Positions 5,884 through 15,535 of a DNA stretch of 64,000 nt are shown here, one piece after another. The translations under genes and the position numbers were made by a program. The notes below the pieces were generated by a model. That model made no database searches, was not told where the DNA came from, and worked only from the letters and a program-made list of their open reading frames with translations. Positions within the stretch are counted from its first letter, which is position 1. Each line of letters begins with the position of its first letter. The DNA is from an uncultured Bacteroidia bacterium (GTDB taxonomy: Bacteria; Bacteroidota; Bacteroidia; J057; CALAJH01): positions 1 through 64,000 of the forward strand of contig CALAJH010000001.1 of the NCBI GenBank assembly GCA_937922655.1, given 5' to 3'.

Positions 5884-6729
5884 GTGAAACGGATTTGGGC
5901 CGCAACGTTTGCAATGACCTTGGCAATGACGGCTTGTGGCCGTTCGGAATCTCGGTACGTCAAAATCAAAGGAAGCGAAACGGTGCTTCCCATCGGCTTG
6001 AAGTTGGCCGAAGATTGCGGCAACAATCCGTTGATTCCGGATGCTTCGGTGTCGGCGGGGGGCAGTGGCGTGGGCATTGCGGCGCTTCTAAACGGAAATG
6101 CGGACGTGGCCATGTCCTCCCGTGCCATTAAGCTCGAGGAAAAAATCAAGTTCGCCGTCAAAAACATAGAGCCCGTGGAAGTGGTACCGGCCTACGACGT
6201 TTTGGCCGTTATCGTTCATCCGTCCAACCCTCTCGACACCCTCACTATCGAAAACCTAAAAAAAATCTATAAAAACGACATCACGCGTTGGAGCGAAATC
6301 GGTGGTCCGAACAGGCCCATCGTCGCTTTCAACCGTGAAAGCAGTTCGGGCACTTACGAGTTTTTCAAACAGCGTGTCTTGGAAAACGAAACCTTTGGCA
6401 ACCTTGAAAGCGTTGGCGCCAACGGCGAGCTGGCCGAAAAAGTGGCCGACAACGAAAACGCCCTCGGTTACGTCGGCATAGCCTACGTCGACGAAAAACG
6501 GGTAAAGGTATTGAAGATTTACAACCCCGATTTGGGGCGTTCGGTGCCGGCGACGTTGGGTACGTCTTTGGACGGCACTTATCCTTTGGCGCGGCCGTTG
6601 TATTTTTACTACGTTCGCGGTGCGGACTCTTCCGTCGTACGCGTGCTTGATTATCTTGTTTCACCCGAAGGCCAAGAAGGCGTGCGTTCCACCGGCTATG
6701 CGCCCAATCCTAAATATTACCGAAAATGA
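5884..6729 (+). CDS. pstS: Phosphate ABC transporter substrate-binding lipoprotein PstS
   Basis: This 281-residue lipoprotein starts at GTG; the lipobox MTAC puts Cys18 at the mature N-terminus. PstS features: KIKGSETVLPIG (phosphate loop 1), SAGGSGVGIAALLNGNADVAMSSR (loops 2 and 3), IYKNDITRWSEIGG (about 128-141) and NRESSSGTYEFF (about 150-161, the SSGT phosphate loop). It captures periplasmic inorganic phosphate for the Pst importer. It overlaps pstC by 4 bp (ATGA). GTG is preferred because later Met codons would remove the charged n-region of the signal. Confidence 0.93.
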   Translation: MKRIWAATFAMTLAMTACGRSESRYVKIKGSETVLPIGLKLAEDCGNNPLIPDASVSAGGSGVGIAALLNGNADVAMSSRAIKLEEKIKFAVKNIEPVEVVPAYDVLAVIVHPSNPLDTLTIENLKKIYKNDITRWSEIGGPNRPIVAFNRESSSGTYEFFKQRVLENETFGNLESVGANGELAEKVADNENALGYVGIAYVDEKRVKVLKIYNPDLGRSVPATLGTSLDGTYPLARPLYFYYVRGADSSVVRVLDYLVSPEGQEGVRSTGYAPNPKYYRK

Positions 6730-7913
6730 GGCGGTGGCGTGACTTTTTGGGCGAATCGTTTATCAAGGCGTCGGGGTACACGGGGGCTCTGACGGTCGTG
6801 GCGATAGTGTTTTTTTTGTTCAAAGAGGGCGTGGGACTCTTCGGACGTTCGCCCGTCGATGGCTTTGAAGTCGCGGTGCATCCCTCCAATCCCGTGGAAA
6901 AACTCAATGAAGCGCAAGTTCGCGGCTTGATTTTCGGACAAATCAAAACATGGAACGAACTCGGCGGACGCGGCGAAGTCGAGGTGTGGCACGTCTCCAA
7001 TTTGGATAAAAAACTCAAAGCCGAGGGTTTGAAGTTCGAAGGGGAGGATTACCTGCGTCTGTCCCTCGTCTTCGATTCGCTTCTCAACGCCCGGCCCAAC
7101 ATCGTTTTGATATTTCAATCCCCTTTGATACCCCCTTCGGCCAAACGCTTGGAGGTCGGCAAGATGACGGTCGCCGGTTTTTTGGGGGGAACGAATTGGA
7201 AACCGACCGAAAGTCCGGCGCCGCTTTTCGGCTTATGGCCTTTGATAGGCGGCACGTTGTTGGTAACGTTCTACGCCATGATTTTTGCCGTCGTTTTGGG
7301 CGTGCCTACGGCGATCTATTTGGCCGAACCGGCGCCGAAAAAGGTGCGGGCCGTTGTCAAACCGATGATTGAATTGTTGGCGGGGGTGCCGTCGGTGGTG
7401 TTTGGATTTATCGGTTTGGCGTTGGTGGTGCCGAATTTGCGTTTGGCTTTTGGTTTGGACAGTGGAAGCACGGCGTTGGCCGGAAGTATTTTGTTGGCGA
7501 TAGTGGCTTTGCCGACGATAATCTCCGTGTCCGAAGACGCGATACGGGCCGTTCCCGACGCTTTGCGACATGGGTCGTTGGCGCTTGGCGCCACGCATTG
7601 GCAAACGATATATCGGGTGGTGGCGCCTTATTCGAGTTCGGGTATTGCGGCGGGACTGATATTGGGCGCGGGGCGCATCGTCGGCGAAACCATGGTCGTG
7701 CTTATGGTTACGGGCAACAATCCGCAATGGGTCGGCTGGGACGCGTTAAAATCCGTGCGTACCATGAGCGCCGCCATTGCCGCCGAGATGGGCGAGGCCC
7801 CGCAAGGCGGAATGCATTATCAAAGTCTGTTCACCGTCGGATGTATGTTGTTTTTGCTGACGTTTTTCGTCAATTTTGTCGGGGAAATGCTCAAAAGTAA
7901 AGTGAAAAAATAG
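6726..7913 (+). CDS. pstC: Phosphate ABC transporter permease PstC with inserted PstS-like segment
   Basis: This 395-residue permease has TM1 at about 18-37 and the remaining helices from about 165 to the end. PstC hallmarks are FLGGTNWKP, FGLWPLIGGTLLVT, the permease loop LALGATHWQTIYRVV and GAGRIVGETM. Between TM1 and the usual periplasmic FLGGTNWKP stretch sit about 105 extra residues (about 40-148). Their beginning (residues 49-81, VAVHPSNPVEKL ... IKTWNELGG) closely matches PstS residues 109-141 (VIVHPSNPLDTL ... ITRWSEIGG). The SSGT phosphate loop is not conserved in the insert. No pstA, pstB or phoU follows; the next genes are divergent barrels. Confidence 0.92.
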   Translation: MRRWRDFLGESFIKASGYTGALTVVAIVFFLFKEGVGLFGRSPVDGFEVAVHPSNPVEKLNEAQVRGLIFGQIKTWNELGGRGEVEVWHVSNLDKKLKAEGLKFEGEDYLRLSLVFDSLLNARPNIVLIFQSPLIPPSAKRLEVGKMTVAGFLGGTNWKPTESPAPLFGLWPLIGGTLLVTFYAMIFAVVLGVPTAIYLAEPAPKKVRAVVKPMIELLAGVPSVVFGFIGLALVVPNLRLAFGLDSGSTALAGSILLAIVALPTIISVSEDAIRAVPDALRHGSLALGATHWQTIYRVVAPYSSSGIAAGLILGAGRIVGETMVVLMVTGNNPQWVGWDALKSVRTMSAAIAAEMGEAPQGGMHYQSLFTVGCMLFLLTFFVNFVGEMLKSKVKK

Positions 7914-10036: not shown

Positions 10037-13000
10037 CTATTCGGCGGCGGGCAGGGCGAATTCCGCAACCGTTCCGCCTTCGGCGGGAAAGTTAAGCCGG
10101 ATTTTGCCGCCGTATTTTTCGACGATGAGTTTGGACAGGTAAAGCCCCAGACCGCTTCCTTGGCCTTCGGGCAAGGTCGAATAAAACGGTTCGAAAATCC
10201 GGTGGCGGCGGCTTTCGTCCACGCCCGGTCCCTCGTCGCGCACTTGGCAAACGACGAACTTGCCCTCGTCGTTAATCAGTTCGTGAAATTCGACGGTGAT
10301 TTTCCCCTTGTTGTTCGACCATTGGTAGGCGTTGTGCAAAAGGTAGGATAAAACTTTTTCGACGTCCTCGGGCGTAGCAACGGCCTTCGGGTCGGCAAGC
10401 CCTTCGACGACAAGCTCCACGCCGTACGTCAGCGACTGCGCGACGGACTGCCTTGCGTGCTCCAACGCCTGTTTAAGCGGGACGGGGGCGGTGGCGACGG
10501 GTTCGTCGACGGCGGCCAAAGTCCTGAGCGTTTGCGTGATTTTTTCCGTTCGAGCTTCGGCCTGCAAAATGTTTTTGATTGACGAGGCGATTTTGGCAAA
10601 ACGAAGGGCGGCGTCGATGGCTCGTTTTCCCTCCGGCGTTTTCAACAGCGGGACGATTTCTTCGAAGCGGTCGAATCCGATGCCGGCAAAAGCGTCGGCG
10701 TAATAGTCGTTGGCTTCTTTGTCGGGCAAAAGTTGGTTCAATTGGACGAGGGCGTTTTTTTTCGCCTGACGCAAATCGCGGGTGGAGGCGGGGGGATGAG
10801 GGTCGGTAGTCGTTTCCAACATTACGCCAAAGCCGGTTTTATGCTCGGCCTCGAGGTCGACGTAAGCCTTCAAGAGCGGAAGGGTTTCGGTTTTGAGGGA
10901 TTTTTGGGCCAATTCGCCCGAGGCTTTTATCGCGCCCAGCGGCGTATTGATTTCGTGCGAAACGTTTTTGACCAGTTTGCCCACCGACGCCATTTTTTCC
11001 GTCCGTATCAGTTCGTCCTGTGTTTCTTTGAGGCGCGTCAGGGCGTCCGAAAGTTCTTTGGTACGAATTTCAACCTTTCTTTCAAGGTTTTCATAAAGTC
11101 GGGCGTTTTCTATGGAGATGCCGGCTTGCGCGGCGAGCAGATTGACGGTTTCGAAGCGTTGGGGGGTGAAGGCGTCGGTCGTCAGGTTGTTTTCCAAGTA
11201 CAGCACACCCACCACGTCGCCACGGTTCAACACCGGCGTGCAAAGTACGGACTTGACGTTGAAGGCGGCAATGTATTCGTCGCGGGAAAAATCGCCTTCT
11301 TGGGCGGCGTTGTGCAAGACCACGCCCATACGGGTGCGAAAAACGAAATAGACAATCGAACGGGGTAGGTCGTAAAGCGCGTCGAGCGTGGCGCCGGGGG
11401 TGAAGGGATATGGCGTGCCGTCGGCACGGACGGCGGCCTGCACCGCCAGTTTGAAATCGTCGTTTTGCAACAAGAGAACGCCCTTTTCGGCGCCGGCGTT
11501 TTCCATGACCGTGCGCATGAGTTTGTCCAATAGCGCGTTGAGGTTTACCTCCATCGAAAGCGCTTGCGTCGCCTTGATGACCGCGTCGAAGTCAAGGGCG
11601 GAAACCGAGCTCCCGCCCGCGCCGAAGGTCGAAGTCCCGCCCGTCGTCGTGCCTGCTCCAAAGGCGCCGGTCGTCGTGCCGGGAAATTGGGTCGTCGAGG
11701 CAAAAAAGGAACTTGTGCCGCCGAGGAAGGTGGTCGTCGTGGAGGAGCGTGCGGATTTGGCGGTGGATGGGACAAGGAAAGGATGGGCCGCCTCGAGCCT
11801 GCGGACGAGGGCCGTCGCGCCCCAACGTCCGTAGGCGTAGTGGGCTTCGCGAAGATATCCTTGCGCGGCGCGTTCGCGTCCGGATTTGAGGTAAAACTTT
11901 GCCGCCCATTCCGCCGCCAAACCCCAAATATTAAATCCGTTGCCTTTTTTAGCGGCTTCGACGGCCTTGTCGTATTCGGTTTCGGCCTCGCGAACGTTGC
12001 CGGAAAACCGCATCCATTCCGCTTTCAACAAATGAAAACGGCCCGCCCAATTGTCCGCATACACTTCGGCCGATTTTTCCAAGCGTTTCAAAGCTTTTTT
12101 GACCGCCGCGGCCGCGCCGTGTTTTTTCTTCGTCCGCTCCTCCAAACGCATCCTTAGTAGGGCCTCGGCAAAAACGTACTCGTAATGAATGGTGGTGCTA
12201 AGATAGAAATGCAGCTGCGCGCCCATACGCCCCAAAATATTTTCATAAGAAACGGCCGGGTCGTGCACATCGTACAAAGCCATCAAAAAGTCCGTAATCG
12301 AGAGATAGGTTTCGTGCGAGATATAAAGCAATTTCTCAAAAACGGCCGTGCGGGGCGGAAGCTCGTAGTCCATCGGCTTGTCCATCAGAATGCAGGCGTA
12401 CTTTTGCACCGTTTTGGACAATTCGACGTAAAGTGCGTCCTTTTGGCCATGGTAAAAAAACTCGATGTTTCGGGCGGATTCATGAAGGTCGGAAAGCGCC
12501 ACGCCACCGACAATTCCGGTGTAAAAGATGCCGTGCATGGTGTAACGGCCGAACGTGGCCTCGCCCACCTCACGGCAACGTTTGAAGTGTTCGACGGCGG
12601 CGGAAAAAGTTTTATGAAACGGTTCGCGCAAAGGTTGGCTGAAAATCAAGTCTACGGCGTAAGTTTTGGCGTCCGTGAGCGGGCTGCGTCCTTCAAAGCG
12701 CTTATAGAGTTGAATGCCGACGTCCCCGAGATGCCGGGCGTTTTTGATTTCGCCCAAGGCGTTCAATACCAAGGCCACGCCGATGACGTTGAATGTGGAC
12801 GAGGCCGAGGGGCCGTGTTTCAACCAATACGGGACCTGCCACATGGTATTGGCGGGCATCATTTCGGGACGGCCCAAGAATACCGGCGCGGCTATGACCA
12901 TGCCGATTTCCCGCATGAGGTTGACGCGTTCGTCGGTACATTCGGGGGCGTTGATCAATTCGTCTTCGGACTTGTTGCGCAAAAGCCATTTGGCTTTGAG

Positions 13001-15535
13001 CAGCGCCGCAATCGTGGCCAACTGCAGACGTTTGCCGCTTAGGTGATACCCAAACCGAAAACCGAGGCGCCGAAGAATGTCGTCGCCAAGCCGAATGGCC
13101 TCGTCGTGGCGCGAAAGCACGCCGTACATGTTGATTTTGAGTTTGTAGACCTCGGCGATGCGGAAAAAATCCTCGGCGGGAATATTGGCAATGGTTTGGT
13201 TGTAGTAGCGCTCGGCTTTGTCGTAGTCGCCGACGATAAAGGCGCATTCGCCGGCGGCGGTGTAAACCTCGAAGCAAGTCAAAAAGTCGGTCATCCACGC
13301 GTTGTCGGGCAAGAGAGACAGGGCCGTTTCGAGCAGGCGTAAAGCGGAATCGAAAGCGGCCGCGTCCCGCGCTTTTTTACCCGCTTTTGCGAACAGCTTG
13401 GCCATGCGGTTGCGTTCTTCGCCGTCGCGGACTTCGTCCAACACACGGTCGTAGTGGCCGACGGCGTCGAAAAGTTTGTCGTCGTCGTGCGCCAGTTTTC
13501 GGGCAATGCGCAAGTGAAGCGCTTTGACTTTTTCGGGGGCGATGGAATTGTAGGCCGCCTGTTGAATGCGGTCGTGCTGGAAACGAAAAACGTCGCCGCT
13601 TTTGACGACCAACTCCCGATAGGACAAATCGGTTAGTCGTTCGCGAACGTCGGGCAACGACCAACCCGTAACTTCGGCAAGCGTTTTTTCGTCGAAACTT
13701 GCGCCCAAAAGCGCGGCCGTTTGTAGGGCTTCAAGCGAGGTTTCGGGAACCGAGCGCAGTTTTTCCAAAAGAAATTCGACGACGTTGTCCGAAGAGCGCA
13801 ATTTTTCCGCCGCCTCATAGTTGTACGTCCACCGTCCGTCGTTCCAATACAAAATTTTTTCTTCGTAAAGACGGGTCAAAAATTGAGTGACGAAAAACGG
13901 GTTTCCCGCGGTTTTACGAAGAATAAGCTCGGCAAGGGGCTGATGGCGGCCGTCGTCGTTTTTACGGCCGTCGAGCGCGTCGTCAAGCATGGCCTCGATT
14001 TGTAGGCCCGTAAGGTTTTGCAGTCGGAGTTCGACGACCTCGCGAGTTTCGGAAATGGATTTGAGCGTGTCGCGAAGGGGGTGGTCGTCTCCGACTTCGT
14101 TGTCGCGATAGGCGCAAATGAGCATGAGATAGTTGGGGGGCGGGGCCGTCGCTTGGTTTTCGAGCCATTGGAGTGAGGCGGAGTCGGCCCATTGCAGGTC
14201 GTCGAGAAAGACGACGAGCGGATGTTCTCGTTTGGCGAAAACTTTGACGAATTCGCCGAAAAGGTGCTTGGCGCGGTTGAGGGCCTCGTTGCCCGACAAA
14301 TGCACGACGTCGGGTTGGGGGCCGAGAAGCCATTCGAGTTCGGGAACGACGTCGATAATCACTTTGGCGTTGGCGCCGAGGGCGGCGAGAATTTCGGCTT
14401 TCCAATTTTCGATACGCTCCGGGGACTCGGTCAAAATTTGACGCACGAGTTCGCTCAGGGCCTGCGCCACGCCGCTGAACGGCACGTTGCGTTGATACTG
14501 GTCGTATTTTCCCTCAACGAAATAACCTTTTTCCCGCACAAGGGGTTTTTGCACCTCGTGGATAAGGGCCGATTTACCGATGCCCGAAACGCCCGTAATC
14601 GAAACGACGACGCTTCGGCCCGTAACGCACACGCTTTCAAAGGCTTCGAACAAACGTTTGAGTTCGGTTTGCCGGCCATAGAGTTTTTGCGGCGGGCGGA
14701 ACTCTCGCGGCGCGTCGAACCTTCCCGGCACAAAGTCTTCCAACGAACCAAGCCGCGACAAACAATATTCAAGGTCTTGGGCCAAGCCTTCGGCGCTTTG
14801 GTAACGGTCTTCGGCGTTTTTGGCCAAAAGCTTGTGTACCAAGTCCGATATCGGCTTGGGAACCTTGGGATTGACGGCGTGAACGGGCGCGGGATTGAGC
14901 GCCACGTGGCTGTGGACGAGTTCGGCCATGTCCTTGCCCGCAAACGGCGGCCGGCCCGTCAAAAGAAAATACAACGTCGCCCCCAGCGAGTAAAAGTCGG
15001 TGCGGTAGTCCAAATACCGGTTCATGCGCCCGGTTTGTTCGGGGGACATATACGCCGGCGTACCGACGGGCCGTTCCGTGCGGCCCACCGACTCCTGACG
15101 CATGCGCCCGGCGGCGTTGAAGTCGATGATTTTGACTTCGCCCGTTTCGGGGTTGAAAAGGATGTTTTTCGGGTTGACGTCTTTGTGGATGACGTCGGCG
15201 GCGTGAACACGCGCCAACGAACGGGCGATTTGCAAACCGATTTTCAACACCGTTTTGACGTCCACGGGGGCAAGTTCCGTCAATTCCTTACCCCCAAAAT
15301 CCTCCATGACGATGCCGTAGCCGACGGGTGTTTCACCCAAATGGTACGCTTGAACCACTCCCTCCCCGCCTACTTGCGTCAATATGGAATATTCGAGTTC
15401 GAGCAGCGACAAGACTTCGGGTTCCGGATAGGGCGAATTGGCGACTTTGACGATGACGTTGCGGTCGTTTTCCCGGCCCCGGTATACGTTCGTTTTTTCT
15501 CCCGAATAGATTTTTTCGGTTGAGGCGATGTTCAT
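10037..15535 (-). CDS. Giant Ser/Thr kinase - AAA ATPase - TPR - GAF - histidine kinase sensor
   Basis: The protein has 1832 residues and no signal peptide. Order: Ser/Thr kinase (about 10-260) with VIVK (Lys30), catalytic loop HKDVNPKN (Asp119, Asn124) and DFN (138-140) where DFG is usual; AAA_16-type ATPase (about 285-600) with Walker A GVSGIGKS at 315-322 and a Walker B LVVFLDDLQWAD; a long TPR-like helical region (about 690-1290); a Ser/Thr/Gly-rich linker (about 1300-1350); a GAF domain (about 1360-1505); then a coiled coil and histidine kinase with phospho-His1527 (VSHEINTPLGAI), N-box LLHNAYQW, G1 DEGPGVD and G2 GSGLGL. There is about 100 residues of extra sequence between the two dimerisation helices. 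No receiver domain or response regulator is adjacent. The architecture resembles cyanobacterial HstK-type hybrids. Signal unknown. Confidence 0.9.
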   Translation of the reverse strand: MNIASTEKIYSGEKTNVYRGRENDRNVIVKVANSPYPEPEVLSLLELEYSILTQVGGEGVVQAYHLGETPVGYGIVMEDFGGKELTELAPVDVKTVLKIGLQIARSLARVHAADVIHKDVNPKNILFNPETGEVKIIDFNAAGRMRQESVGRTERPVGTPAYMSPEQTGRMNRYLDYRTDFYSLGATLYFLLTGRPPFAGKDMAELVHSHVALNPAPVHAVNPKVPKPISDLVHKLLAKNAEDRYQSAEGLAQDLEYCLSRLGSLEDFVPGRFDAPREFRPPQKLYGRQTELKRLFEAFESVCVTGRSVVVSITGVSGIGKSALIHEVQKPLVREKGYFVEGKYDQYQRNVPFSGVAQALSELVRQILTESPERIENWKAEILAALGANAKVIIDVVPELEWLLGPQPDVVHLSGNEALNRAKHLFGEFVKVFAKREHPLVVFLDDLQWADSASLQWLENQATAPPPNYLMLICAYRDNEVGDDHPLRDTLKSISETREVVELRLQNLTGLQIEAMLDDALDGRKNDDGRHQPLAELILRKTAGNPFFVTQFLTRLYEEKILYWNDGRWTYNYEAAEKLRSSDNVVEFLLEKLRSVPETSLEALQTAALLGASFDEKTLAEVTGWSLPDVRERLTDLSYRELVVKSGDVFRFQHDRIQQAAYNSIAPEKVKALHLRIARKLAHDDDKLFDAVGHYDRVLDEVRDGEERNRMAKLFAKAGKKARDAAAFDSALRLLETALSLLPDNAWMTDFLTCFEVYTAAGECAFIVGDYDKAERYYNQTIANIPAEDFFRIAEVYKLKINMYGVLSRHDEAIRLGDDILRRLGFRFGYHLSGKRLQLATIAALLKAKWLLRNKSEDELINAPECTDERVNLMREIGMVIAAPVFLGRPEMMPANTMWQVPYWLKHGPSASSTFNVIGVALVLNALGEIKNARHLGDVGIQLYKRFEGRSPLTDAKTYAVDLIFSQPLREPFHKTFSAAVEHFKRCREVGEATFGRYTMHGIFYTGIVGGVALSDLHESARNIEFFYHGQKDALYVELSKTVQKYACILMDKPMDYELPPRTAVFEKLLYISHETYLSITDFLMALYDVHDPAVSYENILGRMGAQLHFYLSTTIHYEYVFAEALLRMRLEERTKKKHGAAAAVKKALKRLEKSAEVYADNWAGRFHLLKAEWMRFSGNVREAETEYDKAVEAAKKGNGFNIWGLAAEWAAKFYLKSGRERAAQGYLREAHYAYGRWGATALVRRLEAAHPFLVPSTAKSARSSTTTTFLGGTSSFFASTTQFPGTTTGAFGAGTTTGGTSTFGAGGSSVSALDFDAVIKATQALSMEVNLNALLDKLMRTVMENAGAEKGVLLLQNDDFKLAVQAAVRADGTPYPFTPGATLDALYDLPRSIVYFVFRTRMGVVLHNAAQEGDFSRDEYIAAFNVKSVLCTPVLNRGDVVGVLYLENNLTTDAFTPQRFETVNLLAAQAGISIENARLYENLERKVEIRTKELSDALTRLKETQDELIRTEKMASVGKLVKNVSHEINTPLGAIKASGELAQKSLKTETLPLLKAYVDLEAEHKTGFGVMLETTTDPHPPASTRDLRQAKKNALVQLNQLLPDKEANDYYADAFAGIGFDRFEEIVPLLKTPEGKRAIDAALRFAKIASSIKNILQAEARTEKITQTLRTLAAVDEPVATAPVPLKQALEHARQSVAQSLTYGVELVVEGLADPKAVATPEDVEKVLSYLLHNAYQWSNNKGKITVEFHELINDEGKFVVCQVRDEGPGVDESRRHRIFEPFYSTLPEGQGSGLGLYLSKLIVEKYGGKIRLNFPAEGGTVAEFALPAAE

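Follow-up and report, generated by a model that had tools for sequence, protein, structure and literature searches.

The window, i.e., the whole 64,000-nucleotide stretch of DNA analysed here, derives from an uncultured Bacteroidia bacterium and carries two phosphate uptake genes on the forward strand that overlap by 4 bases: pstS (5884..6729), encoding a phosphate-binding lipoprotein of 281 amino acids (Pfam PBP_like_2, E 7e-43; NCBIfam ptsS_2, E 5e-60), and pstC (6726..7913), encoding a phosphate ABC transporter permease of 395 amino acids with an insert assigned to lobe II of PstS. The PstC product scored 258.8 bits (E 5e-77) against TIGR02138 (phosphate_pstC), above the cut-off of 196.45, and the channel part of its full-length AlphaFold2 model (pLDDT 83.7) had its best PDB matches in Escherichia coli PstC (9k3y_B, E 1e-13, rmsd 2.7 Å). 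Judged by model score, predicted channel fold, the adjacent pstS and the full Pst set of the genome, the protein is a phosphate ABC permease.

The Pst genes are dispersed in the source genome (G000), pstS and pstC lying in the window and the other members elsewhere. The likely pstA, encoding a PstA-like permease, was located 58 kb downstream of pstC on the opposite strand (C1:65769-66674, -; L173:3770-4675), while pstB and phoU were located on other contigs (C5:108099-108839; C63:22897-23523). Relatives mostly keep pstSCA as one group, unlike the source genome. Within the window, positions 10037-15535 (-) hold an open frame of 1832 residues that reads as a serine/threonine-kinase-like N terminus, a long middle part of ATPase and repeats, and then a GAF and histidine-kinase-like C terminus.

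The insert of PstC separates the first transmembrane helix from the channel. TM1 spans about residues 15-40 (6768..6845, +), where AlphaFold2 places a helix over residues 2-40 and the alignment contains a conserved hydrophobic block. At FLGGTNWKP (residues 152-160; 7179..7205, +) alignability with insert-free PstC resumes, as indicated by alignments and match starts: PstC proteins of other lineages, which lack the insert, begin to match the window PstC only near residue 148-152. Between these landmarks lie approximately 100-110 residues (41-151); the insert length found, ~110, agrees with the approximately 105 residues estimated in an earlier note on this DNA. The inserted domain itself, delimited by hhalign, hmmsearch of the PDB, AlphaFold2 and Foldseek, covers about residues 45-146 (6858..7163, +). 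It includes the segment for which the resemblance to PstS was first reported, residues 49-81, whose position in the reading frame had been given correctly (6870..6968, +) and which comprises the hinge strand, a helix and the motif IxxWxExGG. Further on, a stretch free of any SGT motif (about residues 90-106; 6993..7043, +), recognised by loop counts, replaces the phosphate loop and next helix of PstS. The counterpart of the insert in PstS is lobe II, residues 104-213 (6193..6522, +), as established by profile alignments and by the joint alignment of 127 PstS and 69 inserts; the phosphate loop there, RESSSGT, corresponds to residues 151-157. The full-length model places the folded insert between TM1 and the channel helices, in the TM1-TM2 loop, and the topology of PstC together with the origin of the domain suggests that it lies on the periplasmic side.

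Sequence homology and predicted fold of the insert

Direct counting gave 13 identities over the 33 aligned positions of PstC 49-81 and PstS 109-141, at the low end of the 13-16 previously proposed, and BLASTP of the window PstC against the window PstS, run as a single pair, returned 14/37 identical residues (E 4e-6). TIGR02136, the NCBIfam model for PstS, matched residues 44-81 of the window PstC at E 4e-5; Pfam PBP_like_2 was weak on this sequence alone (E 0.007), and phmmer reached the solved PstS structures 4q8r, 4gd5 and 1twy at E about 0.006. In a tree of the lobes, the window insert is a diverged member within its clade. Both TIGR02136 and PBP_like_2 matched 34 of 35 related inserts (best E 6.8e-14 and 2.9e-12, respectively), and the PBP_like_2 cut-off was exceeded by three of the four full-length orthologues tested, so that databases may already flag a domain fragment there.

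Profile-profile comparison of 35 inserts with 31 PstS by hhalign aligned the insert along PstS 104-206 with 99.1% probability (E 5e-19), at a score of 114-118 versus a maximum of 22 among 60 column-shuffled PstS profiles, reversed controls being also far lower. Splitting the alignment behind the GG motif left most of the signal, a score of 92.9, in the first part (the first 37 residues); the second part alone scored 19.3, barely above noise (best shuffled score 18.1), and was placed correctly at PstS 183-212. An HMM built from the inserts only and searched against solved PstS structures (hmmsearch, PDB) aligned insert positions 6-114 with PstS 79-198 at E 7e-15, and the window PstS matched the orthologous insert L031 across PstS 109-214 at E 1.7e-10. 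For the half beyond the GG motif, homology is argued from the longer hmmsearch and BLASTP alignments together with the predicted fold.

Modelled alone by AlphaFold2, the insert showed the strand-helix-strand order typical for a lobe (pLDDT 86.5, pTM 0.79), and the same secondary elements were in place in the full-length model, in keeping with the PstS-like subdomain expected from the earlier note. In a Foldseek search of the PDB, every match of the insert model at E below 0.01 was a phosphate-binding protein; the best had E 4e-6, with TM-scores of 0.58-0.62 by query length, the Foldseek score drawing on sequence as well as shape. The rmsd across all aligned columns was large (5-9 Å for PstS-type matches), and the model thus supports the alpha/beta lobe topology and not its atomic detail. 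Both the profile alignment and the full-length model contain lobe II only, the two-lobed cleft of a complete PstS being absent.

A chance short motif, or convergence in an unrelated periplasmic domain, would account for the first 37 residues holding most of the profile score and for the remainder alone staying near noise. Such an origin is scarcely credible and largely refuted by the profile controls and the whole-lobe alignments: shuffled and reversed profiles score far lower, the alignments by hmmsearch and to L031 run the length of the lobe, and the predicted fold matches only PstS-type proteins at the threshold given above. The insert is almost certainly a homologue of the whole of PstS lobe II, a copy of the lobe within PstC. 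The similarity noticed at the outset was therefore real and its extent understated, as it covers all of lobe II and not 33 residues alone; the suggestion that part of the binding-protein fold had been duplicated into the permease gains strong support, the part being one complete lobe without its ligand loop.

Absence of the SSGT loop from the insert had also been noted, and this held across the family: an SGT-type phosphate loop occurred in 126/127 PstS and in 0/69 inserts, and with its loss the insert cannot grip phosphate in the manner of PstS. Many inserts of Bacteroidales and Flavobacterium keep the arginine that precedes the loop position, but the window's own group lacks it. Conservation within the insert falls mainly on the shared core (N55, I73, W76 and G80-G81), the few insert-specific positions being G106 and an acidic residue ahead of the first strand; no conserved interface stood out in the conservation of the 69 inserts.

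Distribution and phylogeny of insert-bearing PstC

Other insert-bearing PstC proteins, which the earlier note had proposed to seek across Bacteroidota, were found in 61 of the 395 sampled Bacteroidia genomes. Among the best-matching named carriers are Bacteroides, Parabacteroides, Prevotellaceae, Rikenellaceae, Flavobacterium, a Hymenobacteraceae and two Fibrobacterota from gut samples; a feature confined to the source genome is thereby ruled out. Bacteroides is represented by the insert-bearing sequences L097, L107, L109 and L113; separately from these four, regulation of the pst genes by PhoB is reported for B. fragilis (PMC3547664).

A PstC tree was built from the channel columns only, leaving the insert out. 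In it, one branch (support 98) set the 70 insert carriers apart, a single change that rules out repeated gains: the insert was gained once by PstC in an ancestor of Bacteroidia and then kept. No member of the carrier clade without the insert was found, and 53/53 complete high-scoring Bacteroidia matches begin at the N terminus; the N-terminal loss in G680 is only apparent, a contig end cutting the sequence. Even the deep, lower-scoring family f99 still has the insert in a shortened form. The nesting of the two gut Fibrobacterota carriers within Bacteroidales indicates that they acquired this PstC horizontally. An ancestral feature of Fibrobacterota was ruled out by this nesting and by the other sampled PstC-bearing members of that phylum, which are without the insert, and the insert that seemed present in Fibrobacterota G755 was an artefact of reading past stops into the upstream pstS.

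In the lobe tree, the inserts grouped together on a stem of 1.9 changes per column (~110 columns), a length that points to an old duplication. The donor PstS lineage was also sought in this tree, and with so long a stem and only about 110 columns none was singled out.

Discussion

The window PstC shares its channel part and gene context with E. coli PstSCAB (9k3s, 9k3x and 9k3y; TIGR02138), but where a standard PstC has a short loop from TM1 to the channel it carries about 100 residues with the fold of PstS lobe II. With that lobe (TIGR02136, PBP_like_2) the insert has profile and predicted fold in common across the whole length, whereas it differs from PstS in being a single lobe, membrane-anchored within PstC, deprived of the phosphate loop and fast evolving. 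To our knowledge, an ABC importer normally draws its binding protein and its permease from distinct families, and where the two are joined at all, whole domains are fused. OpuA and GlnPQ resemble insert-bearing PstC in that their permease polypeptide includes a binding-protein-type domain; these domains are whole, two-lobed and ligand-binding, are fused to the permease and replace the free binding protein, whereas PstC holds one ligand-blind lobe in an internal loop and works with a PstS that is still complete and free. The open-licence papers searched contained no description of a PstS lobe within PstC.

The earlier note had suggested that the insert might dock PstS or sense its state. We propose that it would serve as a permanently attached module that docks or positions PstS where the PstC-PstA channel opens to the periplasm. 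The insert would touch PstS sideways while PstS docks on the channel, as the unrelated MalF-P2 of the maltose importer does with MalE, and this side contact would promote productive docking or signal the occupancy of PstS to the permease. MalF-P2 is likewise a folded periplasmic insert of a permease at the docking side of the binding protein, and the comparison concerns how the two might work, with no homology claimed: MalF-P2 occupies a different loop, has a different fold and is not derived from MalE. The docking reading draws on the insert being retained where it was gained, sitting at the landing side of PstS, being ligand-blind and diverging slightly in step with PstS. Distances among inserts and among PstS, once channel distances had been removed, correlated weakly (partial r 0.17-0.22, p 0.005), in agreement with contact between insert and PstS, shared ancestry being able to yield such correlations as well; the correlation with PstS was stronger for the channel part of PstC (partial r 0.47-0.52), and the surface of the insert changes fast (mean distance 0.97 vs 0.36 for the channel part). 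Papers cited in PMC3150292 have MalF-P2 interacting with MalE through the catalytic cycle, and one cited in PMC7756565 has it communicating substrate availability to the MalK dimer. A docking role is about evenly balanced, and the explanation as a whole, a copied lobe II that would act as a docking or positioning module, appears just probable.

The copied lobe might also exert its effect by imitation. Binding proteins of type I importers lay two lobes on the channel, and lobe II is one of the two that make this contact; tethered to PstC, it might fill the lobe-II landing site in the absence of loaded PstS and keep the resting transporter shut until loaded PstS displaces it. A mimic would be expected to look like this, a duplicate of the lobe with which the partner itself docks, carried by the channel polypeptide and no longer in need of a ligand; yet the insert diverges fast, where imitation of a conserved docking face should have preserved that face, and we regard such a plug as rather unlikely. 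If true, it would entail less wasteful use of ATP or would set the signal to PhoR. It is similarly doubtful, if a shade easier to entertain, that the ligand-blind lobe mimics PstS by competing or pairing with its lobes at the channel mouth, so that in Bacteroidia a three-lobed receptor gates phosphate transport or Pho signalling.

An accidental capture, kept only for the folding or stability of PstC and taking no part in transport, would fit a fast-changing surface over a conserved core and the lack of a conserved ligand or active site. PstC in other phyla, however, works without the insert, and its long retention without loss (a single change in the channel tree; presence in all complete high-scoring members) counts against a purely structural element, which we consider an improbable though serious alternative. 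Binding of phosphate by the insert, alone or with lobe I of PstS, as a means of regulating transport is suggested by its derivation from half a phosphate site and by the pre-loop arginine that many Bacteroidales and Flavobacterium members have kept. That arginine is nevertheless absent from the window's own group, and since the ligand loop present in nearly all PstS is lacking in 69/69 inserts, direct phosphate sensing is very unlikely.

In one of its loops PstC has taken up a copy of one lobe of its partner and retained it throughout a bacterial class that includes dominant gut commensals, and structures of E. coli PstSCAB can guide the understanding of phosphate uptake and Pho signalling in Bacteroides only in part. 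Should the insert dock or mimic PstS, it would exemplify how importers come by accessory periplasmic domains, among which those of the MalF-P2 kind have an otherwise obscure origin, and would offer a natural system in which to test how the two lobes of a binding protein engage the channel.

Further PstS and PstC variants were observed among the sampled genomes. The family f99 and SKW77 (L168-L172 and L124) are deep-branching, with inserts shorter and more diverged than the others and with ordinary PstS genes adjoining. Upstream of pstC in Fibrobacterota G755 (L184), a PstS reads as circularly permuted, in the order signal peptide, the half of lobe II that contains SREESSGT, lobe I, and a VIVNQSNEV...W segment just before pstC; no description of such a permuted PstS was found in open-licence papers. 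Finally, at L026:1-2001 (G059) a long open frame closes with a C-terminal PstS-like domain (BLASTP to the window PstS, E 2e-27), and its upstream part resembles tetratricopeptide and WD40/PD40-type repeats.
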